Origin: an uncultured Pseudoflavonifractor sp.
GTDB lineage: Bacteria; Bacillota; Clostridia; Oscillospirales; Oscillospiraceae
Reading direction: 5' to 3'
Assembly (NCBI GenBank): GCA_947644625.1
Contig: CANRZY010000009.1
Location: 1 to 36,407, forward strand
Length of the DNA: 36,407 nt
Numbering within the stretch: position 1 is the first letter of the stretch; the number at the start of each line of letters is the position of its first letter. Of this stretch, positions 95-19,757 are shown in pieces. The position numbers and the translations under genes were made by a program. The notes under the pieces were generated by a model that saw only the letters and a program-made list of their open reading frames with translations, ran no database searches and was not told the origin of the DNA.

Positions 95-1279
95 TTACTT
101 CACAGTCTGGGTGGTCTCCAAAGCCCAAGCGTTGTTGGCGGTATCCGCCACCTTGATGTAGGCGGTATCCCGAATGGCGTCCCCGGTGGCGTCAAAGGCG
201 ATGGCCCCGGACACGCCGGTATAGGTCACACCCGGCAGAGCGGCCTTCACGTCGGCGGCGTTGATGCTGCCAGCGGCCTTCAGAGCCTCCAGGGCGGTGT
301 AGTAGGCGTCGTAGCCCATGGCGGTGACGGCGGCGATGGTATCGTTGCCGCCGTTGTTGGTCATGGCGGTGGAATCCTTGGATAGCCATTCCTTGATGCC
401 GCTGTCGAACTCAGGGGCGCCGCCCTCCTGATAGAAGGTGGAAACAAAGAGCTGGACCTTGGAATTTTCAGCGGCCTCCAGCACCATATTGTTATCCAGA
501 GTGTCGGAGCCCAGAATGGGAGTCTCCAAGCCCATAGAGGCAGCCAGCTTCACGATCTGGGTGGAGTAGGCGATGGACACGGGGCAGAAGATCACGTCGC
601 AGCCCTCGGCCACAGCCTTATTGAGGTAGGTGGAAAAGTCGGAGGTGTTGGTGGGGAAGGAGTCCTTCACCACGTCCCCCTGGAAGGCCTGCTCAAAGAA
701 GGTCAGCAGGCCCTGGTCATAGTCGTTGCCCAGCTCGCCCAGCAGGTAAGCCTTTTTGGCGGAGAACTTCTCCTGGGCGAAGTTGGCAAGGACGGTGCCC
801 TGGAAGGGATCCAGGAAGCAGATACGGAAATAATAATCGTTGCCCGCAGTGACGCCGGGGTTGGTGCAGGTAACGCCGATGGCGGCAAGACCGGCCTCCT
901 CAAAGGTGGGACCGCCGGCAATGGACACGCCGGAGCCGTAGGAGCCCAGCACCAGGGCCACGTCCTTGCCCACCAGCTCAGCGGCGGCGGTGGGAGCCTT
1001 GGCGGCGTCGGAGCCGTTGTCGGCGTAGACCAGCTCTACCTTGTAGGTCTCGCCGCCCACTTCCACGGTGGGGGTCTCCTGGTTGGCATACTGCATACCC
1101 AGCATCTCCTGCTTGCCGCCCGGTCCGGAGTCTCCGGTGGAGGGCTCGAACACGCCGATCCGAACCACCTTTTCGCCGGAGGCGGCGTCCTTCCCGTTCT
1201 CCTTGGTCCCGCCGCCGCAGGCGGCCAGACCCAGGATCATGGCGGAGGTCAGGAGCAGGGACAAAACTTTCTTTTTCAT
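95..1279 (-). CDS. ABC transporter substrate-binding lipoprotein, branched-chain amino-acid (LivJ/Peripla_BP_6-like)
   Basis: MKKKVLSLLLTSAMILGLAACGGG lipoprotein signal; VRIGVFEPSTGDSGPGGKQEMLGMQYA, LVLGSYGSGVSIAGGPTFEEAGLAAIG typical of LivJ-type binding proteins. Confidence 0.9.
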   Translation of the reverse strand: MKKKVLSLLLTSAMILGLAACGGGTKENGKDAASGEKVVRIGVFEPSTGDSGPGGKQEMLGMQYANQETPTVEVGGETYKVELVYADNGSDAAKAPTAAAELVGKDVALVLGSYGSGVSIAGGPTFEEAGLAAIGVTCTNPGVTAGNDYYFRICFLDPFQGTVLANFAQEKFSAKKAYLLGELGNDYDQGLLTFFEQAFQGDVVKDSFPTNTSDFSTYLNKAVAEGCDVIFCPVSIAYSTQIVKLAASMGLETPILGSDTLDNNMVLEAAENSKVQLFVSTFYQEGGAPEFDSGIKEWLSKDSTAMTNNGGNDTIAAVTAMGYDAYYTALEALKAAGSINAADVKAALPGVTYTGVSGAIAFDATGDAIRDTAYIKVADTANNAWALETTQTVK

Positions 1280-2769: not shown

Positions 2770-5700
2770 TTATTTCTCCGTGTAAATACGGACGTCGTCA
2801 ATGTAGGAAGTCAGCATCTCGCCTTTATAGCTGTTGCAGGAAAATTGAAGAAGCCCCACACTCTCCTGCACCGTACGCAGCGGATATGTGCCCAGCAGTT
2901 TTCCATCCAAATAAAAGTGCATGTCCGCCCCGTCGATAATCATGCCGACGGTGTACCATACGCCCGTTTTCGGCTTGGCGACCTCTACGCGCGTCCCCGA
3001 CCCCGCTGTTTTATATACCTTCAGCGAGCCGCCCTCCAGGATCGAACCACAAATGGGGTCCTCCGTTTTCTCCTGCTGAAAAACGGCGGGAGCGGCATAG
3101 TAGCTGATGGTAGTATCAGAACGGATCTTTGCTTCAACGTACACCTTACCCGATGTGGAGACGCTGTCAAAACTTCTGAGGGCCTCCACATACAGCCGGG
3201 GCGTCTGCTGCTGCTTGGTCTGGACAAGCTTCAGGTATTGATTCCCCGCGTCCCCGGCCAGCTCTATCGTTCCGGCGTCCCCTTGGCAGGTATCAAAGCT
3301 CCACCCCTCCAGGTCAGCCAATTCCGCAGCCTCATCAAAGGTATCGTTGACGATATAGTTTCGTTCCACAAGGGCGTCAATGGCCGCCGTGATCCGGTCG
3401 GCGCAATCTCTCATGTCCTCAGGACCGCAATCCATACCGGTCTGAACCGCAGTTTGCAGCGCCGCATAGCTGTCGACGGTGTAATCCTCCCCATCGCACC
3501 CTTCCGCCGCTGCCAGCGCGTCCTCCAAGGCCTTCTGGGCGCCCGCATCAATTGCCGTTACCGTTATGGTAGCTTCCACCTTTGTATCCAGCCCTGCCAG
3601 CACGCCGTTTACCGTGACAGTACCGGCGGAGGCAAACTGCTCCCCGGTCAAACCGGACCAATCCGCCATTGCGTACCCATGACTTCCGTCGGCGTATTCT
3701 ACCGCGACAAACAGCGGCAGATCTCCGGGGATCTGCCCCTCCGTGGTTGAACACGCAACCGCGGCTACGCTCACGAGCTCCGGCGCCGTTGGGCGCTGCT
3801 CTTTTGTCAGAGCCTCAAACATTGCCTGGGCAATCATGGCATAGCCTTCGCACTGCATAACGCCGCCCGTTACCGGACCATAGCCATGCACACCGTCAGG
3901 AAACTGTGTATCAGGAGCCTCCGTGCCGCCCTGCGCGCCTGTAGCGCTCTTTGTCGCTTTCTGCACATCCACATATCCGGAATCCGTAATCAGCGCGATC
4001 TGCTTTTGAAGAGGAACAACATAATCATTCAACCGGTTCAATGTGGTCGTGTTGCTGGTCTTGAAATAGGTTGCGGAGGTCGCCACGTAGATTTGAACGT
4101 CAGGGTTGGCGTCCTGATAGCTCTTAATTAGGCTCAGTGCGTCGGGAACATAGTCAGCCTGATACTTGGTCCAATTTTCATCCTTACAGTCGTTTGTCCC
4201 CAGCATCAAAAGCACGATGTCCGGCTGATAGGCCAGGCTGGCCTGATACTCAGGCTTTTCGCCGGTGGTATACCCCGCCGCCTCTTTGCCGTTATTTCTT
4301 GTGCCGTTGTTTACCATTGTAGCGGCATTCCGGCCAAAATTTTGGACCTCATAGGTCTTGCCGGTTGTCTCTTTGGCGTCGTCCAGCAGCCTTTGAAGCA
4401 TGGCGGGGTACGTCTTGTCCGCGTCCACCTGCCCGCTCGACGTACCGTCATTGCCATAGGTGATACTGTCTCCGATGCAGGCAATCTTGATTTTATCGGG
4501 ATCATCGGGCTCTTCCGATCCCGTCCCCGCTTCCTGATAGACCCGGACGTCGTCTAAATAGAACGTCCCGTTTCCGTTCTTGTAATCATCAGAATAGAAC
4601 CGAAGCAGACCTATGGTATCTGCGGTATTGCGCATGGGATGATCTCCGCCAAGCTGTTCCCCGTCCAGATAGATCTGTATTTTTCCGCCGTTGATAATCA
4701 TACTAAGCGTATGCCACGTTGCGGTTTTAAAGCTGCCAACCGTTTTTTGGCTGCTGCTTCCCGCCGTGCTGTACACATTTACTTTGTTGTTTTGCAGGAT
4801 AGCGGCGCAGAGGATCGTACCGGGATAGGTCTGCCTGTTTTGAAACACAAAGGGCGCGCCATAGAAGGTCGCCGCCGTGTCGGAGCGTACCTTCGCCTCA
4901 ATATACATCTTACCAGAGGTCTCCGGAAAGCTTCTGAGCGCTTCTACCGACTTTGACTTTTCCTGTGTTGTCTGCGCAAGCTTCAGGTATTTGTTGCCGC
5001 CGTCCTCCTCCAGCGTCACCGTACCGACGGTCTCAATGAACTCCCAGCCCGCGTTCTCCAGGGCCGTCAGGTCGCTCGCGTCGTCAAAGCGGTCGTCGAC
5101 GATGTAGGCCCCTCTCTCTACCAGCGCGCTTATGGCGTTGGTGATCTGCGTGGCGGCAGCCCCCATGGCCTCCAGTGTGGCGGCCTCTTCGCCAGCTTTC
5201 ACCGCCTTTTTCAGTACCGCGTAGCTGTCCACCGTGTAGGAATCCGCCTTACAGCCTGCCGCTTCCTCCAACGCCGCCTCCAGGGCCTTCTGCTGGGGCG
5301 AATCCTCCCCCGATACGGTCACCACAGCCTTCGTGGAAACCTCCAGCCCCTTCAGCTTTCCCGTCACGTTTACCGTACCCACGGCGTCAAATCCAACTCC
5401 ATCCAGGGACCATTCCACCTGGGCGACGCCGGCGCCGCCCCCTTCATAGCTCACAGCTACAAAATCCGGCAGCTGCGGGCTCACGCCCAAAAGCGTAGAA
5501 CAGGCGTAGTCCACCGTCCGGGTAATGGCGGGCGCTTTGGGAACATCCGTCTTTGCCATAGCGTCGCCTATGGCGCGCGCAAGGATGGAATAGCCCGCCG
5601 CTTTGGGATGGACATTATCAAAGAACAGTTCCGTGGAAACGGCGGGGATGGCGGTATGGGTATCAATAAAGCCCACATCCGCAATCAGCGCGGCCTGTTT

Positions 5701-8700
5701 TTGAAGGGGCACCACCTGCTCATGGACCACGTCCGCCTGGATGTCAAAGCTGTTGCTTCCCGCCACCGGAGAAGCTGCCAGGTAGACCTTGGGGTGGGAG
5801 GGCAGGTCCTGATAGCTCTTAATAAGCTTCAGCGTATCGTCAATAAATTCCGTCTTCTGGGCATCCCAGTTATAGGGCTTGGAATCGTTGGTACCAAGCA
5901 TGATTACTACGATATCCGGCTGGAACTCCCGGCTTTGAGTATACTGGGTCTGAAATGCGTACCCTTTTTTCGCGTTATTTTTATCAATACCATCATACAG
6001 CATGGTAGCGCCGCTTATCCCGAAATTTCGTACGTCATAATTGTCGCCCAGATAAGTTTGCAGCTGTCCGTGAAGCTGCTCCTTTTCCGTTTTACCTTCG
6101 GTCGTAACGATCCGCTTGGCTTCGGTGATACTGTCTCCTACACAGGCCACCTTGATTTTGGCCACCGTCAATTTTCCAGTGGCCTGGATGCTATACGTAT
6201 TTGTTATCCCATTTGGAAGCCTCAAATCACTGGTAAAGCTGTATGTCCCAGCCGCACCGGCGTTGTAAGCGTCACAGGTCCACCCGACAGCCTCCATCTC
6301 CTGCCAGGAATCGTCGCCCAGCTTTACTCTCACCCTCGCAGGAAGAGCGGCTATCGCATCGTCCAGCGCCGTCCCAAGCGGAACCTCTGCCGTCACAGGG
6401 GCCGCATAGGAAACGTCGTTGTCGTCGGTAACGATCCCAAAGGATTCCTGATAAACGTTCAAATCATCCAGATAGAAAATACCCTTCGGACGGCTTGTGT
6501 CTTTATCATCAGAATAAAACCGCAGCATACCAAGCGTGGTCAGCGGATTACGCATGGGCAGGTCTGTCGCTATCCGCTCCCCGTTTACAAATACCTGCAT
6601 TTTTTGCGTCCCACTGTCCACGATCAGGCTGATAACGTCCCATTCTCCACTCTTAAAGGTACCGACCTGCTTCATGGAGGAGCTGCCCGCCTTATATGTG
6701 GCCATGATTTTTCCATCGTCGCGCAACGCAAGCGCTCCAAGGATCGTAGCAGAATCCTTGTTCTCGTACAAATATGGCGCGCCGTAGAAGGTTTTGGGCG
6801 TATCGGAGCGGACCTTTGCCTCAATGTACACCTTTCCGGAGATCTCTGTAAAGCTCCTTCTCGCCTCGACGGAGGCAGCTTTTTCCGTCTGTGCGATCTT
6901 CAGGTACTTGTTATCATCGCCCTCCAATGTTACGGTACCGTTGGTTTCAATAAATTCCCAACCATCCAACTCTCCACGCGTATCGACCTGAAAGTCGTCT
7001 ACGAGGATATTTTTCCGCCTTACCAGCATATCCGCCGCATTCTTCAACGTATTTACAAGGCCGACCGCCTGCTGCTCCCCGCCAACGCCGCTTTCCACAA
7101 TGGCTTCCGCCTGCCGGATCGCCGCCAGCACCGGGGCGTAGCTGTCGACGGTATATTCCCCGCCGTTCAGTCCCTTCGCCGCTTCCAGAGCGGAATTCAA
7201 TTCCCGCAGAGTTTCAGCGGATATAGGGATCTGTCTTGTTCCTTGCAGCTCGATCTCAAAAATAGAGGCGTTTCCGCTGTTGGTGGAGTTTCCTGACACG
7301 TTAACGCGCACATACCGCGCACCCACATTGTTTAAAGCGTCCTCCACAACGCCGGCTGTTGTATTATTGGAGCGGTCCACTACCTGCGTATAGGTTTCCC
7401 CATCCAAACTGGTCTCGACGGTGTACTTGTACGCGCGGCTGCCGCTGACAAACCAGCTTATGCCGATCCCGGTCAAGCTATAGGGCTCTCCCAGGTCCAC
7501 CTGGATCCACTGGGGATAGGAACCTCCGTTTGCCGCCCAGCGTGTATCAGGGTTTCCGTCAACGACGTACTCAGCCAGATTGCCGTTCTGGGACTCAGTG
7601 GAGGAAGCGGTCACCTTCAGTTTACGGTACTGCTTTACCTCCAGGATCGCCTGCTGAAGGGCCTCATAAGCCGTCAGCTTCTCTCCACGGGAGGCAGTTG
7701 TCAGGTCGATCTGCTTATACCGGTCATAAACCGGCACAAACCGGTCAATGGACGCTTGGTCATAGGGGGAAATGGGAAGCTCCGACGCAGCAAGGATAGA
7801 CCCGCACTCATCAAGGGTCGCCTGGAGCAGGGCGTCAATATCCCGCAACATCTCAACACTCCTCACCGCGCCCGCCAGCTGGGCATAGCCCCGGCGCACA
7901 GCGTCGGCCCCAGACTGACTCAGCGCCCTTTCTGCCTGGGCAAGCGCGTTTTCCAGGATCTCCTTCCCGGTGGGATCGCTCTCCTGGGAGGCCATGGCGG
8001 AGACCTCTTCCATATAAGCCTTCAGGACAGCCCCCGGCATAGAAAGAAGCTTGGGGGTCTCTCCCGCGTCCCGGTTATACACCGAATGATAGCTTTCCGC
8101 CGGGCCCTGGTTGGACGTACGCAGTCCGCCGGTATTGATCACGATACGGTCCACCGACACCCCCGCGTCCACCATATACAGCTTGACCATATGATAACCC
8201 CTGTCGGGCACATGGATGGTTCTGGTCAGCCGTTCGATCCCGTTTGTAACGTTTGTCTCCCAGGCCGTATTGTCCGAAACATGATTGCCTGAGAACACCA
8301 CCGGCTCGCCGTCGTCCACACCAATAGCCAGCCGCTGCCCCACCTCGTCCAGAGAGGGAACGCGGTAAACCGTGGTTTCAAAATCGCCCGCGGTCTGGAA
8401 GTAAACCGGATAGGTCAGGTAAGGCGCGCTCTTCACGTTATCCGCATAGTTCGGCGTACCCATGGGTCCTGCCGAAACCGAGGCTCCCGATCGGCCCAAC
8501 CCGTCAAACGCGAAAAATCCGACATCGCCGTCCTTGACGCAATCCGTATAATGCTCCGCCTCGATAGCCACATAGCCGTTGGCCTCTCCGTAGCCATTGA
8601 GCTGCTCCCGGACCAGGGCAGGATTGTTTACCCGCACCGCGATCTCTTTTGTTCCGCCCGCGCCCTGAATGGTCAGGGTGGCGGTCTGGTCTCCCGCCGG

Positions 8701-11700
8701 GAGAGTGGCCCAATCAATGGTGACAAACAGGCGCAGCTCATCATAAACCGTGCCCTCAGCCTCCGAAAGCTTTACCCAGGGCTGATCCGCCGCCGCCGTA
8801 AAAGCAAAGGCCTTCCCGCCCAGGTTAAATACGTCCACATAGCGGGTATCGTGCTGATAGGCAGAGAAGTCCAGAGCGCTGTCCTCCGCCTGCTCCATTT
8901 CCCCCTCCACAACAACGCCCAAGCCGCTGAGATAGGGCACGCTGGTTATAGCCGCCCCCTTCGGCTTTGCCGGGGCGATATTGGAATGGAGGAAATTGCC
9001 CGACTCCATAATGCCGTCCCATTTCCCGTCGGAAATGCGTTTATTGTAGTGGTCCTTGGCGTCGTCCTCCTGGGTCTGGGCCCAGTCGATCAGCTGGGTA
9101 TACAGGTTTGCCGCGGCGGTACGCCCCTGGCTGCTGTAGAGCTGGCTCTTCTGGGCGTAGTAATACTTCAGGTTATTATAATAAGACGCCTCAATGGGGT
9201 ACACCACATGCTGATAGAAGGCATCCCCCTGGGTTTTGTCCAGTCCGTTCAGAACGGCGGCGGCCCGTCCAAACAGCTCCTGATAATCGGCCAGGCGCTG
9301 CATGGATTCATCGCCGTAATTGACCGGGTCATATACCGCGCCGCGGGAATCGCTGAGGGTGGTATGCTCAGGCTTGCGGGAATAATTCAGGTGATAGTAC
9401 TCCCGCAGGATCTGCCCCACCTCAGCGCTGTCCGCATCGGGGAACCATTTCTCAGAAAGCTCCTGGAAAAAGCTGTCCCCGCCGTCCTGGCCCATCAGGT
9501 TGTCTGCCGTCCATTTCTCCATATCCCAGGCAATATCCAGGAAGAATTGCGCGCCCTTCTCATAGGGCTTGATATCGCCCACATTCAGCACCCAGAGCTG
9601 CTGTACTCCGGCCTCATAGGCCTTGCTCATCTCACTGAGGATCAGTGCGGGGGGAACGGAATCCATCCACAGATAGCCCTGCCTTCCGTTATACTGCAGA
9701 TGGTAGTATACGCCGTTCCCGCCTTCCCGGGCCTGTTCCTCCGCCGTGGGGAAATGCCGGATAAAGCCTTGGTTATCCTCCGCCCACACGATCGTCGTAT
9801 CCTCGGGCAGCTTCAGGCCCAGGTTATAAAGGGGCAGGACCTCTTTGTAGGGGACAAAGATGGGGAAGGACTCCTCGTTGGCGTCCTTCATCATTTCCAC
9901 CTGGCTGTCCACCACCGCCTGGAGCACATCCCGCTTTTCTTGATCGGTTTTCGCGTTGGCCGTCCGGAACCCGCTGTCATGCAGGCCCCGCATTCCCAGG
10001 GTGTAGGAGACCGGCACATCCTTATACCAGTCGATCCCCTGCCGCCAATAGGCGTCAATAAAGCCCCGGTTTTCGGTTATGCTGTAATCATACTTGGGGA
10101 AGCCGTATTTACCGGCGTTGTCGTTCATCCAGTTGTCGACCTTATTGCTTTTTCCCACGACCTCGGTCTGTGTCTTTCCTTCAAAATAACCCTGCGTCTG
10201 CAGGTAGTCAAACCAGTCCGCCGTGCCGTTCATCATCATGGGTTCGCAGTGGCTCGTGCCCACCACGACGCCGTATTCGGCCGCCAGCTGCCGGTTTTCG
10301 GGATATTTATTGAAATGCGCCACCGGGCCAAGACGGGGCTCGGAATGCATGGCGGTCCATAAATAGTTTGCCCTCAGACGCAGCAGCAGCTCATAGACCT
10401 TTTTGTAGGTCTCCGGCCCGATATTGTTTACGGGGTCGTTCCCGTTCTTTGTCCAGGCATACAAGCTTTGTTCGTCGTTAATGAAAATGCCGCGGTATTT
10501 GACAGAGGGCTCCCCCTGCACCTTGAGAGGCTCTGAAATAAAGACCCGGTTTTTCACCTCGGGCAGGATATCCCCCCAATAGTACCAGGGAGATACGCCA
10601 ATCTGTTCGGAAACATCGTAGATCCCGTAAATCGTGCCCCGCTTGTCGCTGCCCGCGATGACCAGCGCCCTGTCTACGCCCTCCATGGGCTCATCCACGA
10701 TCTTAATGATGTAGCTTTCCCACTTTCCCTCCAGATCCCTGGCCTCATCCAGCTTCCCAGCGGCCATCAGCTCTCCGATCATCTGACTGTTTTCCACCGA
10801 GCCCACGATAATGGCCAGGCCGGACAGCTCCGAGCGGTCATGCCGGACAAGGGGCTTGACCTCCGTGACCCGCTCTACATCCAACTGCAGATCCCCCACG
10901 GCACGGACGACCTGTTTATAGTCCGTCTCCTCCACATAAATATCCGGGACCGTAGTCCCCTGAAAGAGGACAAAGGCGCCCTCCGGAATCGGCTTTTCCG
11001 TTACGGTCACGGAAAATTTCGCGGTCCCATCCTCATACCCGTCGGCGGACGCGGTGACCGTCACAAGGGAGGTCCCCGGCTTTTTTCCGGTGACCCGAAC
11101 GGTATGTCCGTCCACCATGACGGAAACCACACCGGTATCGCTGCTGGCGGCAGTCAGTACGGCATTCTCCGGAACGGTAGTAAAGCGCACTTCCGCACTT
11201 TCCTCCTCCGGCAGGTCCTTTATGTCTCCGCCGCCCTGGATGGATACCGCTCCGGTAGCGCTTGATCCTGTGTCGGTATCCTTATCGCTCTCCTGGGGAC
11301 TGGGTTTCGGCCTTATCACCTGAGTGTCGGCGGGCGTCTGGATATGTTCCACCTTGGCGTTCCCGACCATCTCCACCGTTACCTTTTCGGCGTTCTCCTG
11401 GACCTTGAGCGTTGTAATACTGCTCTTTCCGGTAATCTTCACCTGTACGCCGTCCGCGCTTACGATCACAGAGTCAGCCTCGGTGTCCTTCAGCTTTACC
11501 GCTCCCTGTCCAGCGCCTCCGCCAATCAGCAATGTCCCCACTACGGTCCCGCTGACAGTAACTCCACCGGACGCCACCAGCACGAGTCCGGTCCCATTGT
11601 TCCCGTCCAGCGTATAGGTTCCAGGCTTCGCGATATAGGCGCTGATCGAACGGTTCAGGATGGTGACCACCTCAGCCCGGCTTATATCCTTCAGCGGCGC

Positions 11701-12249
11701 CAGACGCCCTTCAGAGGTCCCCTCCACGATCTTAGCCTCCATCAGCGCCGCCACGGCGCCTTTTGCCCAGTCCGCGACCTGTTCCCCGTCGGCAAAGCGA
11801 TCCACCGGCAGGTTTTCCACCGGCTCGATTGCCAACGACCGCGCAATCACCACCATGGACTCCTGACGGCTGATCCGATCATTTGGACGGAAAAGACCGC
11901 CGCTTCCCACCATGATCCCGGCCTCGGCGCATTTCAGCACCGCCTCGGTATACCAAGCGTCCCCCTCCACATCCGCGAAGGGATTGGAGGTCTGTTTCGT
12001 CAGCTTCAGCAGATTGGAAATGACCTGTGCCACCTCCGCGCGGGTAATGGGATCCCCTGGGCGAAACCTTCCATCGTATCCCTTCATGACCCCGTGCTGG
12101 TTCCAGGTCTCAATAGCCTGTTCCGCCCAATGCCCCTTTATATCAGCAAAGCTTTCCCCATTGCCCGGCGCGGCCACGGCTGGAACCATTCCCAACAGTA
12201 TGACCAACACCAAAAGCATGGATACCATTCGTTTCAACTGTTTTTTCAT
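2770..12249 (-). CDS. Giant (~3159 aa) secreted SLH-anchored multimodular CAZyme: SLHx3, Ig-like, GH115 alpha-glucuronidase, CBM32 (F5/8C), 2 SGNH/GDSL esterases, 3 LamG-like and several FIVAR-like modules
   Basis: ATG at 12249 with aaggaggagctccca upstream, then signal peptide MKKQLKRMVSMLLVLVILLGMVPAVAA. SLH motifs FADIKGHWAEQAI; GH115-like AIIVGSVENSQ..GSDKRGTIYGIYDVSEQIGVSPWYYWGD..YRGIFINDEQSLYAW; GDSIT/GTND/DxVH twice. Confidence 0.9.
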   Translation of the reverse strand: MKKQLKRMVSMLLVLVILLGMVPAVAAPGNGESFADIKGHWAEQAIETWNQHGVMKGYDGRFRPGDPITRAEVAQVISNLLKLTKQTSNPFADVEGDAWYTEAVLKCAEAGIMVGSGGLFRPNDRISRQESMVVIARSLAIEPVENLPVDRFADGEQVADWAKGAVAALMEAKIVEGTSEGRLAPLKDISRAEVVTILNRSISAYIAKPGTYTLDGNNGTGLVLVASGGVTVSGTVVGTLLIGGGAGQGAVKLKDTEADSVIVSADGVQVKITGKSSITTLKVQENAEKVTVEMVGNAKVEHIQTPADTQVIRPKPSPQESDKDTDTGSSATGAVSIQGGGDIKDLPEEESAEVRFTTVPENAVLTAASSDTGVVSVMVDGHTVRVTGKKPGTSLVTVTASADGYEDGTAKFSVTVTEKPIPEGAFVLFQGTTVPDIYVEETDYKQVVRAVGDLQLDVERVTEVKPLVRHDRSELSGLAIIVGSVENSQMIGELMAAGKLDEARDLEGKWESYIIKIVDEPMEGVDRALVIAGSDKRGTIYGIYDVSEQIGVSPWYYWGDILPEVKNRVFISEPLKVQGEPSVKYRGIFINDEQSLYAWTKNGNDPVNNIGPETYKKVYELLLRLRANYLWTAMHSEPRLGPVAHFNKYPENRQLAAEYGVVVGTSHCEPMMMNGTADWFDYLQTQGYFEGKTQTEVVGKSNKVDNWMNDNAGKYGFPKYDYSITENRGFIDAYWRQGIDWYKDVPVSYTLGMRGLHDSGFRTANAKTDQEKRDVLQAVVDSQVEMMKDANEESFPIFVPYKEVLPLYNLGLKLPEDTTIVWAEDNQGFIRHFPTAEEQAREGGNGVYYHLQYNGRQGYLWMDSVPPALILSEMSKAYEAGVQQLWVLNVGDIKPYEKGAQFFLDIAWDMEKWTADNLMGQDGGDSFFQELSEKWFPDADSAEVGQILREYYHLNYSRKPEHTTLSDSRGAVYDPVNYGDESMQRLADYQELFGRAAAVLNGLDKTQGDAFYQHVVYPIEASYYNNLKYYYAQKSQLYSSQGRTAAANLYTQLIDWAQTQEDDAKDHYNKRISDGKWDGIMESGNFLHSNIAPAKPKGAAITSVPYLSGLGVVVEGEMEQAEDSALDFSAYQHDTRYVDVFNLGGKAFAFTAAADQPWVKLSEAEGTVYDELRLFVTIDWATLPAGDQTATLTIQGAGGTKEIAVRVNNPALVREQLNGYGEANGYVAIEAEHYTDCVKDGDVGFFAFDGLGRSGASVSAGPMGTPNYADNVKSAPYLTYPVYFQTAGDFETTVYRVPSLDEVGQRLAIGVDDGEPVVFSGNHVSDNTAWETNVTNGIERLTRTIHVPDRGYHMVKLYMVDAGVSVDRIVINTGGLRTSNQGPAESYHSVYNRDAGETPKLLSMPGAVLKAYMEEVSAMASQESDPTGKEILENALAQAERALSQSGADAVRRGYAQLAGAVRSVEMLRDIDALLQATLDECGSILAASELPISPYDQASIDRFVPVYDRYKQIDLTTASRGEKLTAYEALQQAILEVKQYRKLKVTASSTESQNGNLAEYVVDGNPDTRWAANGGSYPQWIQVDLGEPYSLTGIGISWFVSGSRAYKYTVETSLDGETYTQVVDRSNNTTAGVVEDALNNVGARYVRVNVSGNSTNSGNASIFEIELQGTRQIPISAETLRELNSALEAAKGLNGGEYTVDSYAPVLAAIRQAEAIVESGVGGEQQAVGLVNTLKNAADMLVRRKNILVDDFQVDTRGELDGWEFIETNGTVTLEGDDNKYLKIAQTEKAASVEARRSFTEISGKVYIEAKVRSDTPKTFYGAPYLYENKDSATILGALALRDDGKIMATYKAGSSSMKQVGTFKSGEWDVISLIVDSGTQKMQVFVNGERIATDLPMRNPLTTLGMLRFYSDDKDTSRPKGIFYLDDLNVYQESFGIVTDDNDVSYAAPVTAEVPLGTALDDAIAALPARVRVKLGDDSWQEMEAVGWTCDAYNAGAAGTYSFTSDLRLPNGITNTYSIQATGKLTVAKIKVACVGDSITEAKRIVTTEGKTEKEQLHGQLQTYLGDNYDVRNFGISGATMLYDGIDKNNAKKGYAFQTQYTQSREFQPDIVVIMLGTNDSKPYNWDAQKTEFIDDTLKLIKSYQDLPSHPKVYLAASPVAGSNSFDIQADVVHEQVVPLQKQAALIADVGFIDTHTAIPAVSTELFFDNVHPKAAGYSILARAIGDAMAKTDVPKAPAITRTVDYACSTLLGVSPQLPDFVAVSYEGGGAGVAQVEWSLDGVGFDAVGTVNVTGKLKGLEVSTKAVVTVSGEDSPQQKALEAALEEAAGCKADSYTVDSYAVLKKAVKAGEEAATLEAMGAAATQITNAISALVERGAYIVDDRFDDASDLTALENAGWEFIETVGTVTLEEDGGNKYLKLAQTTQEKSKSVEALRSFPETSGKMYIEAKVRSDTAATFYGAPFVFQNRQTYPGTILCAAILQNNKVNVYSTAGSSSQKTVGSFKTATWHTLSMIINGGKIQIYLDGEQLGGDHPMRNTADTIGLLRFYSDDYKNGNGTFYLDDVRVYQEAGTGSEEPDDPDKIKIACIGDSITYGNDGTSSGQVDADKTYPAMLQRLLDDAKETTGKTYEVQNFGRNAATMVNNGTRNNGKEAAGYTTGEKPEYQASLAYQPDIVLLMLGTNDCKDENWTKYQADYVPDALSLIKSYQDANPDVQIYVATSATYFKTSNTTTLNRLNDYVVPLQKQIALITDSGYVDVQKATKSATGAQGGTEAPDTQFPDGVHGYGPVTGGVMQCEGYAMIAQAMFEALTKEQRPTAPELVSVAAVACSTTEGQIPGDLPLFVAVEYADGSHGYAMADWSGLTGEQFASAGTVTVNGVLAGLDTKVEATITVTAIDAGAQKALEDALAAAEGCDGEDYTVDSYAALQTAVQTGMDCGPEDMRDCADRITAAIDALVERNYIVNDTFDEAAELADLEGWSFDTCQGDAGTIELAGDAGNQYLKLVQTKQQQTPRLYVEALRSFDSVSTSGKVYVEAKIRSDTTISYYAAPAVFQQEKTEDPICGSILEGGSLKVYKTAGSGTRVEVAKPKTGVWYTVGMIIDGADMHFYLDGKLLGTYPLRTVQESVGLLQFSCNSYKGEMLTSYIDDVRIYTEK
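3800..4500 (-). other. SGNH/GDSL esterase domain 2
   Basis: KIKIACIGDSITYG; VQNFGRNAATM; IVLLMLGTNDCK; FPDGVHGYGPVTGGVMQCEGYAMIA. Confidence 0.83.
5550..6168 (-). other. SGNH/GDSL esterase domain 1
   Basis: KIKVACVGDSITEA; VRNFGISGATM; IVVIMLGTNDSK; FFDNVHPKAAGYSILA: all four SGNH blocks present. Confidence 0.85.
7240..7615 (-). other. F5/8 type C (CBM32-like) module
   Basis: VTASSTESQNGNLAEYVVDGNPDTRWAANGGSYPQWIQVDLGEPYSLTGIGISW...ARYVRVNVSG: canonical discoidin-domain pattern. Confidence 0.85.
8115..10980 (-). other. GH115 alpha-glucuronidase catalytic plus C-terminal region
   Basis: YYWGDILPEVKNRVFI, VKYRGIFINDEQSLYAWTKN, LRLRANYLWTAMHSEPRLGPVAHFNKYPENRQLAAEYGVVVGTSHCEPMM, VAIEAEHYTDCV..: family recognised from these motifs. 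Confidence 0.85.
11640..12155 (-). other. Three SLH (S-layer homology) domains
   Basis: FADIKGHWAEQAIETWNQHGVMKGYDGRFRPGDPITRAEVAQVI; FADVEGDAWYTEAVLKCAEAGIMVGSGGLFRPNDRISRQESMVVI; FADGEQVADWAKGAVAALMEAKIVEG..PLKDISRAEVVTIL. Confidence 0.92.
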
Positions 12250-12274
12250 TGGGAGCTCCTCCTTGTTTTTAATT

Positions 12275-12325
12275 ATTATCATTTCTCCCTTCGGGGAGAA
12301 ATGATAATGCTCTAGAGCATTATCA
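12275..12325 (-). promoter_or_regulatory. Overlapping palindromes in the 5' leader of the giant gene
   Basis: attatcatttctccc-ttcg-gggagaaatgataat (12275-12308) overlaps the perfect 24-bp palindrome tgataatgctctagagcattatca (12302-12325). Confidence 0.85.
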
Positions 12326-12507
12326 CGCTTCATGTCACATATACATGAAAGTTGTTTTTTATTATACCATCGTGGCCCATCACCGTCCACTAGTATACTA
12401 CCACATTTTTACCCACTTTTTTTGTGCATAATAACAATTTTGGCTTTCTTATTTTATGGCCTAACAGCATTATATATAAAGAAAATGAGCGCCTCTTGCC
12501 CATAAAA

Positions 12508-12541
12508 AAGAGCGTCGGCTCCTGCGGGAGCCGACGCTCTT
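12508..12541 (-). terminator. Strong rho-independent terminator (minus strand)
   Basis: aagagcgtcggctcc-tgc-gggagccgacgctctt; on the minus strand followed by TTTTTTATG. Confidence 0.8.
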
Positions 12542-12567
12542 ACCTGTTATATTCTTTTTGTCGGCAA

Positions 12568-12712
12568 TACCTTCGCTTGACAAGGGCAGACACGGTTTTG
12601 CAGGACCCAAGCCGCACCCCGCAGGCGGGCTGTCCCCCGGCAAGGGGGAGAACGCCGCCAGCGCACCCTTTGGGGTCCTCTGGGGCGTGTTTGCCCTTGT
12701 CAAGCGAAGGTA
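12568..12712. repeat. Nested palindromic element
   Basis: taccttcgcttgacaagggcagacacg (12568-12594) and cgtgtttgcccttgtcaagcgaaggta (12686-12712): 27-bp inverted repeat with one mismatch; inner aggaccc (12602-12608)/gggtcct (12673-12679) and tccccc (12633-12638)/ggggga (12644-12649). Confidence 0.85.
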
Positions 12713-12755
12713 CAGCCTTATGATGTAAGCCGCTTCCCCAATTTGTAAAAACGCC

Positions 12756-13667
12756 CTATATCGGCCGGAGCTTTTTCCTGACCGCCTCAAACCATTCCGG
12801 CAGCGGGCACTCCACCTCCACCCGCCGCCCTGTCCGGGGGTGGGCAAAGCTCAGCTTTTTTGCGTGGAGACATTGGCCCGCAAGGCCGGGATAGGGCTTT
12901 TTCGCTCCGTAGACCGTATCCCCCAGCAGGGGATGGCCCAGAGAGGCCAGGTGGACCCGGATCTGGTGGGTCCGGCCCGTCTCCAGGCGGCACTTCAAAT
13001 AGGTATAGCCGGAATAGCGCTCCAATACCTCCCAGTGGGTCACCGCCCGCTTGCCTCTTTCCCGGTCAACGGCCATCCGTTTTCGGTCCGCCGGGCGCCG
13101 GGCGATGGGGGCGTCCACCGTGCCGCCGTCCTCCCGAAAGCCTCCCACGGCAATGGCGTGGTACTCCCGGTAAAGACTGTGGTCCTCCAGCTGTCCGGCC
13201 AGGGACAGGTGAGCGCCGTCGTTTTTGGCGGCGATGATAAGCCCTGAGGTGTCCCGGTCGATCCGGTGGACAATGCCGGGGCGCAGCTTTCCGTTGATTC
13301 CGGACAGGCTATTTTCGCAGTGATATAACAGAGCGTTTACCAAAGTGCCGTCGGGGTGCCCCGCCGCCGGATGGACTACCATACCCACCGGCTTATTGAC
13401 CACGATCACATCCTCATCCTCATAAGCCACGTCCAGGGGGATATTCTGAGGAAGAGCCTCCACAGGTGCGGGAGCGGGAAGCGCCACAATATAGACCTCT
13501 CCGGGAATGGTTTTTCGATTCTTCTTTACCGGCTCTCCGCCGCATTCTACCGCCCCGTCCTCCAGCAGCTTTTGAGCCCCGGACCGGGTCAGCTCCGGGA
13601 CCGTCCGGGCCAGAAACTGGTCGCACCGTTCCCCCGTCCGGTCGGCGGTAAGCTCAAGCCGGGTCAT
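12756..13667 (-). CDS. rluD: RluA/RluD-family 23S rRNA pseudouridine synthase
   Basis: S4-like N-terminus MTRLELTADRTGERCDQFLARTVPELTRSGAQKLLEDGAV; VVNKPVGMVVHPAAGHPDGTLVNALLYH; IVHRIDRDTSGLIIAAKN; THQIRVHLASLGHPLLGDTVYG. Start overlaps the lspA 3' end. Confidence 0.92.
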   Translation of the reverse strand: MTRLELTADRTGERCDQFLARTVPELTRSGAQKLLEDGAVECGGEPVKKNRKTIPGEVYIVALPAPAPVEALPQNIPLDVAYEDEDVIVVNKPVGMVVHPAAGHPDGTLVNALLYHCENSLSGINGKLRPGIVHRIDRDTSGLIIAAKNDGAHLSLAGQLEDHSLYREYHAIAVGGFREDGGTVDAPIARRPADRKRMAVDRERGKRAVTHWEVLERYSGYTYLKCRLETGRTHQIRVHLASLGHPLLGDTVYGAKKPYPGLAGQCLHAKKLSFAHPRTGRRVEVECPLPEWFEAVRKKLRPI

Positions 13668-14130
13668 GGCCGCCCTCCTTGTCCTTGTCCTTGTCCCACA
13701 GCAGCAGCACATAGAAGACCATGAGAAAGCCTCCCGCCACCACGCAGATATCCGCCACATTGAAAACGGCAAAGTCCATGAAGGTGGTCTCAAACATATC
13801 GGTGACAAAGCCCAAAAGGGCCCGGTCAATGAGGTTTCCCACCGCTCCGGCCAGAATGAGGGAGAGGGACAGCTTTCCCCAAGCGCCGGGAAAGTAGTTC
13901 TTTGCCAGCAGTACCGCCACCACGATGGAGGCCCCCAGGGACACCAGGGTGAGGAGCCAGGTCATACCGGAAAAGCTGGAAAAGGCGGCCCCGGTATTTT
14001 GGGTGTAGGTCAGATCTATCAAATGGGGAATAAAGGGGATGGACTCTCCCAGGGGGATGGAGGAGCGGACCCACCACTTCACCAGTTGGTCGAGCCCAAC
14101 CAGGCAGATCGGAAGAATATAATACAGCAT
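13654..14130 (-). CDS. lspA: Lipoprotein signal peptidase (signal peptidase II)
   Basis: LDQLVKWWVRSSIPLGESIPFIPHLIDLTYTQNTGAAFSSF; LILAGAVGNLIDRALLGFVTDMFE; FAVFNVADICVVAGGFLM. Confidence 0.95.
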   Translation of the reverse strand: MLYYILPICLVGLDQLVKWWVRSSIPLGESIPFIPHLIDLTYTQNTGAAFSSFSGMTWLLTLVSLGASIVVAVLLAKNYFPGAWGKLSLSLILAGAVGNLIDRALLGFVTDMFETTFMDFAVFNVADICVVAGGFLMVFYVLLLWDKDKDKEGGHDPA

Positions 14131-17916: not shown

Positions 17917-17969
17917 GGGCCCTGTTCAAAAGGGCCGTGAATGCCCTTTCCATGAAAGGAGTACATGTG

Positions 17970-19757
17970 ATGAAAAAAAATAAGTTGATGCCTTTTGTTC
18001 TGAGTGGGGCAATGCTCCTTTCCCTGGCAAGCCTTCCCGCTACCGCCACAGGCAAGGAGCCTGTGGACTTCGGCGATATGGAGGGCCATTGGAGCGCCGA
18101 GGCTGTAGACCGCTGGTCCGGCTCCGGGATCTTCCGGGGAGATGAAAACGGCAACTTTTTGCCGGATAAGGAAATGACCCGCGCCGAGTTTGCCCAAATG
18201 CTGGTCAACCTGATGGGGTATCCGGTCAAGGCGGAAAACAAGTACGCGGATGTTCCCGCCGACGCCTGGTACGCAGACGCGGTCCTGAAGCTGACCGCCG
18301 CCGGGGTCATGGAGGGAGATGGTTCCAACGCCATGCCCAACGCCCCCATCAGCCGGGAACAGGCCGCCGTGCTGCTGTGCCGGGCCCTGAGCCTGAAGAG
18401 CAGCGATGAGGCGAAGATCCTTTTTGACGACGCCTACCAGGTCTCCAGCTGGGCCAGGGACGCCGTGGCCGCTCTGGCGGAGCGGGATATGATCGCGGGA
18501 GTGGGAGAAAACAACTTTGCCCCCGCCCTGAATATCAACCGCGCCAGCGTGGCCCAGATGGTAAGCAATATGGTCTCCGCCTACGTGACCGAGGAAGGCG
18601 CTTCCGTGACCGGGGAGCAGAAGGGGATCGTCATAGTCGCCGCCGCGGATGTAACGGTGGAGAACGCCGTCCTTGCCGAGAGCCTGATCCTGGCCCCCAA
18701 GGCCTCCGGCTCCACTCTGACCCTAACCGGGAAGACTACGGCCGCCCAGGTGGTCCTGGCCGCCCAGGGCGGAAAGGTAATGGTGGAAAAGGACGCCTCT
18801 GTTAAGCGGGTCTTTGTAGAGGCCCCCAAGGCCGAGCTGACTGTAGCCGGAACAGTGGAGAACGTCACCGTAGCCGCCTCTGCCGCCGAAGCGGTCCTCA
18901 CCGTGGAAAAGGACGGCGTTATTGCCAATGTGGAGACCGCCGCTGATAAGGTGGCCGTGAAGGGCCCCGGAAAGATCGCCAGCCTTACCGTTACCAAGGG
19001 CGAGGGAGTCACCGTCAGCGAGGAGACCGTAGTCGATAAGGTGGTGAACCAGTCCAGCCACTCCGTCTTTGTAGGCAGGAAGGAGCTGAAGCCCGGCGCT
19101 TTTATAGGGGAGGATAGCTCCTCCGGCAGCGGCAGCGGTGGCTCCGGCGGCGCTTCCTCTTCCTCCGACACAATCTCGGTGACCTATGTGATTGGCAACG
19201 ACACTACGATCTATGCCGTTGCCAGGGGCGGCAGCGTAAGCGTTCCCGCCCTCCCTGCGGATGAGGAATATTTCTATACCGGTAAGTGGACCTATACTCT
19301 GGGCGGCGACACCGCCGTTTACGAGGCCCAGTCCGGCGATACCATTGAGAACGTGACCGCCGGGCTTACCCTCACCGCCCAGGCCTACGAGGTAAAGGCC
19401 GCCACCCCGGCGAAGCTTACTTATGCCTGCGAAAACGACGCCCTTCTTATTACGGCGGAAGGGAAGGACAAACTCATTATGAATACCTATGAGGTGGGCA
19501 ACGACGCCGGGATCGTGGAGATCGGGATGAAGTACACCGTCCCTGAAAATGCCAAAGGGCTGGCCGTTGCCGACACGCTGGAAGCTCTGCGCGCCGCCCA
19601 GCCGGAGGCTCCTGCCCCCACCGCCGTTACCGTACCCTTCGGCAAGGAGGGAGCGGTGGTAAAATACCTGCTGTGGACGGATAAGCAGGGAGAGATCCTG
19701 GCTGTGGAGAAGATCACGGTACAGCTTGCCGTTGATCCCACACGGCCGGAGGAATAA
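17970..19757 (+). CDS. SLH-domain cell-surface protein with repetitive beta-rich stalk and Ser/Gly linker
   Basis: MKKNKLMPFVLSGAMLLSLASLPATA signal; three SLH repeats (FGDMEGHWSAEAVDRW; YADVPADAWYADAVLKL; FDDAYQVSSWARDAV); hydrophobic/T/V repeats; EDSSSGSGSGGSGGASSSSD linker. Confidence 0.88.
   Translation: MKKNKLMPFVLSGAMLLSLASLPATATGKEPVDFGDMEGHWSAEAVDRWSGSGIFRGDENGNFLPDKEMTRAEFAQMLVNLMGYPVKAENKYADVPADAWYADAVLKLTAAGVMEGDGSNAMPNAPISREQAAVLLCRALSLKSSDEAKILFDDAYQVSSWARDAVAALAERDMIAGVGENNFAPALNINRASVAQMVSNMVSAYVTEEGASVTGEQKGIVIVAAADVTVENAVLAESLILAPKASGSTLTLTGKTTAAQVVLAAQGGKVMVEKDASVKRVFVEAPKAELTVAGTVENVTVAASAAEAVLTVEKDGVIANVETAADKVAVKGPGKIASLTVTKGEGVTVSEETVVDKVVNQSSHSVFVGRKELKPGAFIGEDSSSGSGSGGSGGASSSSDTISVTYVIGNDTTIYAVARGGSVSVPALPADEEYFYTGKWTYTLGGDTAVYEAQSGDTIENVTAGLTLTAQAYEVKAATPAKLTYACENDALLITAEGKDKLIMNTYEVGNDAGIVEIGMKYTVPENAKGLAVADTLEALRAAQPEAPAPTAVTVPFGKEGAVVKYLLWTDKQGEILAVEKITVQLAVDPTRPEE

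Follow-up and report, generated by a model that had tools for sequence, protein, structure and literature searches.

Glycoside hydrolase family GH115 divides into a half of xylan-active enzymes and a half whose sole characterised member, BtGH115A of Bacteroides thetaiotaomicron (PDB 5by3), acts on decorated arabinogalactan, not xylan. The four other structurally known GH115 enzymes that we compared are all xylan-active. The family is described as inverting in its release of (methyl)glucuronic acid. Mutagenesis of one xylan-active enzyme, BoAgu115A, has shown that D206, R328, D332, E375 and H422 matter. The position numbered Asp-424 is Asp in the xylan enzymes and Ser in BtGH115A, whose alpha-linkage claim in arabinogalactan is disputed, so that the substrate linkage of the lone characterised member of its half is in question (PMC9063842). 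Among glycan esterases, the FjoAcXE glucuronoxylan esterases carry the serine motif GNSI (PMC9105624).

The DNA analysed here (the window) is a stretch of 36,407 nucleotides from an uncultured Pseudoflavonifractor sp., from a draft assembly of 135 contigs that is 89% complete. Judged by its relatives and its enzyme set, the bacterium is probably a clostridium of gut origin. A 3159-aa open reading frame (P0001) covers 2770..12249 of the minus strand, stop codon included. It starts with an ATG at 12249, ahead of which lies a ribosome-binding-site-like AGGAGG, and ends with a stop codon at 2770-2772. The original prediction gave this frame without a strand; it is confirmed as one continuous frame with no internal stop. 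The leader has two adjoining perfect palindromic hairpins (12275-12325), with a TATAAT-like box on one side and the start codon on the other; they are a possible regulatory site. Just upstream of the gene, at 12563-12717, inverted-repeat arms of 32 nt that are 91% complementary and 91 nt apart resemble a small mobile element. Searches of the window for Rfam families and tRNAs found nothing, and a whole-protein scan of viral contigs gave no match.

All features of the protein that follow lie on the minus strand. A secretion signal can be read by eye at residues ~1-27 (MKKQLKRMVSMLLVLVILLGMVPAVAA; 12169..12249), and downstream of it Pfam finds three SLH repeats (residues 33-200; 11650..12153; 1e-33) with the motifs TRAE, SRQE and SRAE. 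The predicted Ig-like domain (residues ~340-418; 10996..11232) is recognisable by sequence reading and has no significant Pfam match. Next come a GH115 glucuronidase of the five-domain type (residues ~425-1385; 8095..10977), called from Pfam, PDB comparison and a model, and a CBM32, or F5_F8 type C, module (residues 1546-1666; 7252..7614; Pfam 5e-26) that matches AlyQ and chitosanase CBM32.

The tail has the order LamG–SGNH–LamG–SGNH–LamG, with Big_4 and FIVAR-like linkers between. LamG-like module 1 (residues ~1741-1935; 6445..7029) is followed by a Big_4 domain (residues 1950-2006; 6232..6402), SGNH esterase 1 (residues 2036-2221; 5587..6144), a Big_4-like plus FIVAR-like linker (5125..5532; Pfam and repeat family D2), LamG-like module 2 (residues 2376-2585; 4495..5124), SGNH esterase 2 (3886..4479), a further Big_4-like plus FIVAR-like linker (3415..3852; Pfam and DNA repeats) and LamG-like module 3 (residues 2946-3159; 2773..3414). 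The LamG boundaries come from Pfam and self-comparison. Pfam matches in the tail are Laminin_G_3 three times (1e-19), Lipase_GDSL_2 twice (5e-37) and Big_4 three times (6e-14), and domain scores across the protein are all well over chance level. The tail is internally duplicated: LamG modules 1 and 2 are 57% identical (40-57% for all LamG pairs), the two SGNH modules 42%, and the coding region holds in-register DNA repeats. Neither the duplication nor the linkers figured in the original prediction. Its list of SLH, GH115, CBM32 and three LamG modules in one polypeptide held up, with Pfam matches for each, and the HMM check that it proposed for GH115 and SGNH likewise returned both. Its joining of surface anchoring with a predicted glucuronidase and predicted esterases in a single polypeptide is also supported, by the domain calls, the catalytic residues and the structure models.

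Both GH115 Pfam families are matched, the catalytic Glyco_hydro_115 (PF15979; residues 578-962; 9364-10518; 8e-100) and the C-terminal GH115_C (PF17829; residues 1219-1385; 8095-8595; 2e-38), and PDB comparison matches the module to SdeAgu115A, BtGH115A, AxyAgu115A, BoAgu115A and wtsAgu115A. The five residues that matter in BoAgu115A correspond to D592, R754, D758, E803 and H850 here and are all kept, as is K802. The Asp-424 position is occupied by Q852, and Gln is rare there. The AlphaFold model of the module has a pLDDT of 81. Its best Foldseek matches are 4zmh (E 2e-78) and 6nps, with TM 0.84-0.85; against 5by3 the TMt is 0.89.

The half of the family to which the module belongs was assessed by signature and by trees. 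A signature of 16 active-site columns, drawn from an alignment of 134 GH115 sequences, sorts these sequences into groups, and the 3159-aa protein reads BtGH115A-like, its DHCERLHDKEENYHQN being near the DHCERVHDKEDNYHSN of BtGH115A and unlike the xylan-active DHHERDGDKEDNYHDN. The HC..RxHD signature with a residue other than Asp at 424 is present, as in BtGH115A; the xylan-type Asp-424 signature is absent, with Q852 and an LHD motif instead. A quick GH115 tree gives the same two-way split with support 100. In a careful tree, built from 67 rows, the split has support 100/100 and the protein falls outside the xylan half, in an 11-row clade with enzymes of Streptomyces, Paenibacillus and Lachnospiraceae (97/98). 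In AU tests, placement on the xylan side was not rejected on the quick tree (p 0.565) and was marginal on the careful one (p 0.063). As evidence, the signature and the tree overlap in part, because the diagnostic columns sit inside the tree alignment. From its sequence, the module likely belongs to the non-xylan half. Near GH115 genes of this half, GH92, fucosidase and GDSL proteins are among the common families; near xylan-half genes, GH67, GH10, UxaC and UxuA are. GH67, GH10 and UxaC are absent among the 25 commonest neighbour families on the non-xylan side, and GH43 is common on both. Since these tallies cover the 25 commonest families at selected loci and mix real with possibly spurious ORFs, we take them as supportive.

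The catalytic residues are S2040, G2080, N2121, D2211 and H2214 in SGNH1 (Pfam and model) and S2595, N2686, D2785 and H2788 in SGNH2 (Pfam and motif alignment). Blocks I, III and V (GDS, GTND, DxxH) are kept in both. The block-II Gly of the oxyanion hole is Gly in SGNH1 and Ala in SGNH2; the claim of two complete SGNH domains stands for Ser, Asn, Asp and His in both. The SGNH1 model (pLDDT 91) has carbohydrate acetylesterase folds among its matches. Fold search and sequence profile show a resemblance to Est24, arylesterases and Axe2 at ~20-25% identity, and the fold matches include sialate O-acetylesterases at 17-18%. These matches support SGNH1 as an acyl esterase, probably carbohydrate-directed, but do not support a named CE family; the SGNH substrate is not readable from sequence. 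An assignment as a glucuronoxylan acetylesterase of FjoAcXE type was dropped, since the serine motif here is GDSI, not GNSI. Relatives of SGNH1 in same-family genomes form a tandem pair in L193 and are joined to GH3 in L194 and L195.

The Ala in SGNH2 and Q852 in the GH115 module, together with the numerous binding modules, might indicate a protein that is mainly an adhesin, binding glycans with its catalytic modules decayed. We regard this as very improbable, as the mutagenesis-critical GH115 residues and the Ser/Gly/Asn/Asp/His set of SGNH1 are all intact.

Xylan, the lead substrate of the original prediction, fares less well. A machine debranching acetylated glucuronoxylan would agree with the activity of the four xylan enzymes, with the best fold matches of the GH115 model (4zmh and 6nps), with AU tests that leave the xylan side open, and with an SGNH fold search that returned acetylxylan esterases, Axe2 for example. 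The active-site signature and the careful tree both point away from it (although the AU p of 0.063 is not decisive), as does the GDSI motif. Moreover, GH10 and GH43 had no match across the assembly (89% complete), in an enzyme set of host-glycan type, which makes a xylan specialist unlikely; overall we consider glucuronoxylan an unlikely target. GH43 is also the family of exo-beta-1,3-galactanases, so that full use of arabinogalactan is unsupported too. The assembly does encode the glucuronate isomerase UxaC, and freed glucuronate should therefore be usable.

Other giant SLH proteins of the same genome carry GH20 with CBM32, twin PL8 modules, GH89 with three CBM32, GH84 with GH2, or a pectate-lyase-like fold, and by their domains appear to be mostly host-glycan enzymes. 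The twin-PL8 protein (L154, G000:C23; 947-10135, plus strand) has 3063 aa with both lyase modules in one chain, and in its Big_4 and LamG parts it is similar to the 3159-aa protein's tail. The GH84 and GH2 protein (L156, G000:C8; 571-12513, plus strand) has 3981 aa and three CBM32; similar giants are those with GH89 (L155) and GH20 (L152). The window itself holds a second SLH protein (17937-19757, plus strand), of 606 aa with no further recognised domain, between thiI and cinA.

These sister giants raise a reading in which the 3159-aa protein belongs to a mucin or glycosaminoglycan set, its GH115 removing uronic acid and its SGNH modules deacetylating animal glycans, and the sialate O-acetylesterases among the SGNH fold matches would fit. 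We think this unlikely: the identity of SGNH1 to those esterases is just 17-18%, and a GH88, looked for with the PL8 products in mind, was not found in the assembly. The reading is further weakened because, to our knowledge, alpha-linked D-glucuronic acid is not established in mucins or glycosaminoglycans. In a broader form, with the protein still part of a host-glycan surface set, GH115 would act on an animal or microbial acidic glycan with alpha-linked glucuronic acid, or on a linkage new to GH115, and the SGNH modules would clear away blocking acyl groups. This we hold to be quite improbable, and we know of no animal or microbial glycan of that kind with alpha-linked glucuronic acid.

The reading that we prefer, and to which we give an even chance, is that of wall-anchored trimming by GH115 and SGNH of an acidic branched glycan, galactose-type over glucuronoxylan. 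The SLH repeats, whose anchoring goes with a pyruvylated wall polymer (csaB), would hold the secreted protein on the cell wall, and the CBM32 and LamG modules would keep the glycan chain close to it. The GH115 module would hydrolyse (4-O-methyl)glucuronic acid off the glycan, and one or two SGNH modules would take acyl esters off the same or a neighbouring chain. The freed glucuronate would be imported and enter catabolism via UxaC. We infer that both enzyme types are active and cooperate, with acetyl the probable leaving group. Judging by the active-site type, an acidic polysaccharide of galactose type, in the arabinogalactan or gum class, is a likelier target than glucuronoxylan; the mention of arabinogalactan and gum arabic in the original prediction thus appears the better fit. 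Counting against this reading are the AU results (p 0.063 and 0.565), the single characterised member of this half of the family with its disputed linkage, the rare Q852, and the lack of a GH43 match, in an assembly of 89% completeness.

The gene lies in a variable slot. Its conserved border is an rluD-like pseudouridine synthase (12756..13829, minus strand; homology and synteny), and in two sister species the other border is a solute-binding protein of branched-chain-amino-acid type (95..1279, minus strand; synteny). Sister species keep rluD and lspA, and two keep the solute-binding protein. Between rluD and the solute-binding gene, one sister (G959) has an SLH subtilisin-like protease and another (G1031) no recognised SLH protein; in a third (G916) an SLH leucine-rich-repeat/transglutaminase protein adjoins rluD. 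The slot compared was window 2770-12755, against L218, L220 and L221. It has the look of a site at which surface proteins are exchanged. GH115 is present in one of 16 genus genomes, the other 15 being without it, and was not found in any sampled same-family genome. This patchy spread and the exchange slot suggest that the gene was gained by transfer, though in GC content the gene (0.566) differs little from the window (0.576). The same rarity, in a draft of 135 contigs, could point to an assembly or binning artefact fusing separate genes or genomes. We consider that extremely improbable: the frame is open over 9.5 kb, rluD is 74-84% identical to that of genus members, and sisters show synteny for lspA, rluD and the solute-binding protein. 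Because the flanks are syntenic, the artefact was dropped.

The complete architecture was not found in any other locus compared, and we found no account of a GH115-SGNH or SLH-GH115-SGNH protein in the open-access papers searched. The original prediction likewise knew of no description of the exact architecture, but partial versions do occur in other genomes. GH115 and SGNH share a chain in two of them, G151 (L158) and G076 (L162), with GH115 then an SGNH module as here. L158 has 2201 aa up to the contig end, with a C-terminal SGNH after GH115; in L162 the SGNH, truncated by the contig end, is partial and scores under the Pfam cut-off. Both differ in having one SGNH and no LamG or SLH detected within the sequence up to the contig end, and the GH115 of L158 has the xylan-type signature, unlike the 3159-aa protein. 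Paenibacillus sp. HB172176 has an SLH-anchored GH115 of the same subclade (L082; 6614-15943, plus strand), a single polypeptide of 3110 aa that also carries GH43, but GH43 replaces SGNH and SLH is C-terminal.

Among characterised enzymes, BtGH115A shares the HC..RxHD signature, the non-Asp residue at 424 and the half of the tree, but is a shorter single enzyme without SLH or SGNH and has Ser, not Gln, at 424. The xylan-active SdeAgu115A and AxyAgu115A have the same five-domain fold and are the best model matches, yet carry the xylan-type signature with Asp-424 and no fused esterase or anchor. Xyn10B of Caldicellulosiruptor lactoaceticus is reported to be likewise extracellular, multidomain and SLH-carrying (PMC6556019); this xylanase differs in catalytic family and substrate. 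CpGH89 of Clostridium perfringens (PMC3313936), a large multimodular host-glycan enzyme, represents the family of one sister giant; its catalytic family is not that of the 3159-aa protein, and S-layer homology is not mentioned in that paper. Beside these, the 3159-aa protein would bring debranching and de-esterification together in a single chain bound to the wall, and its bacterium otherwise seems equipped for animal glycans. With the related Streptomyces, Paenibacillus and clostridial proteins it is a candidate for settling the role of the non-xylan half of GH115. It is a real multi-enzyme protein, and an unusual variant of a known enzyme style.
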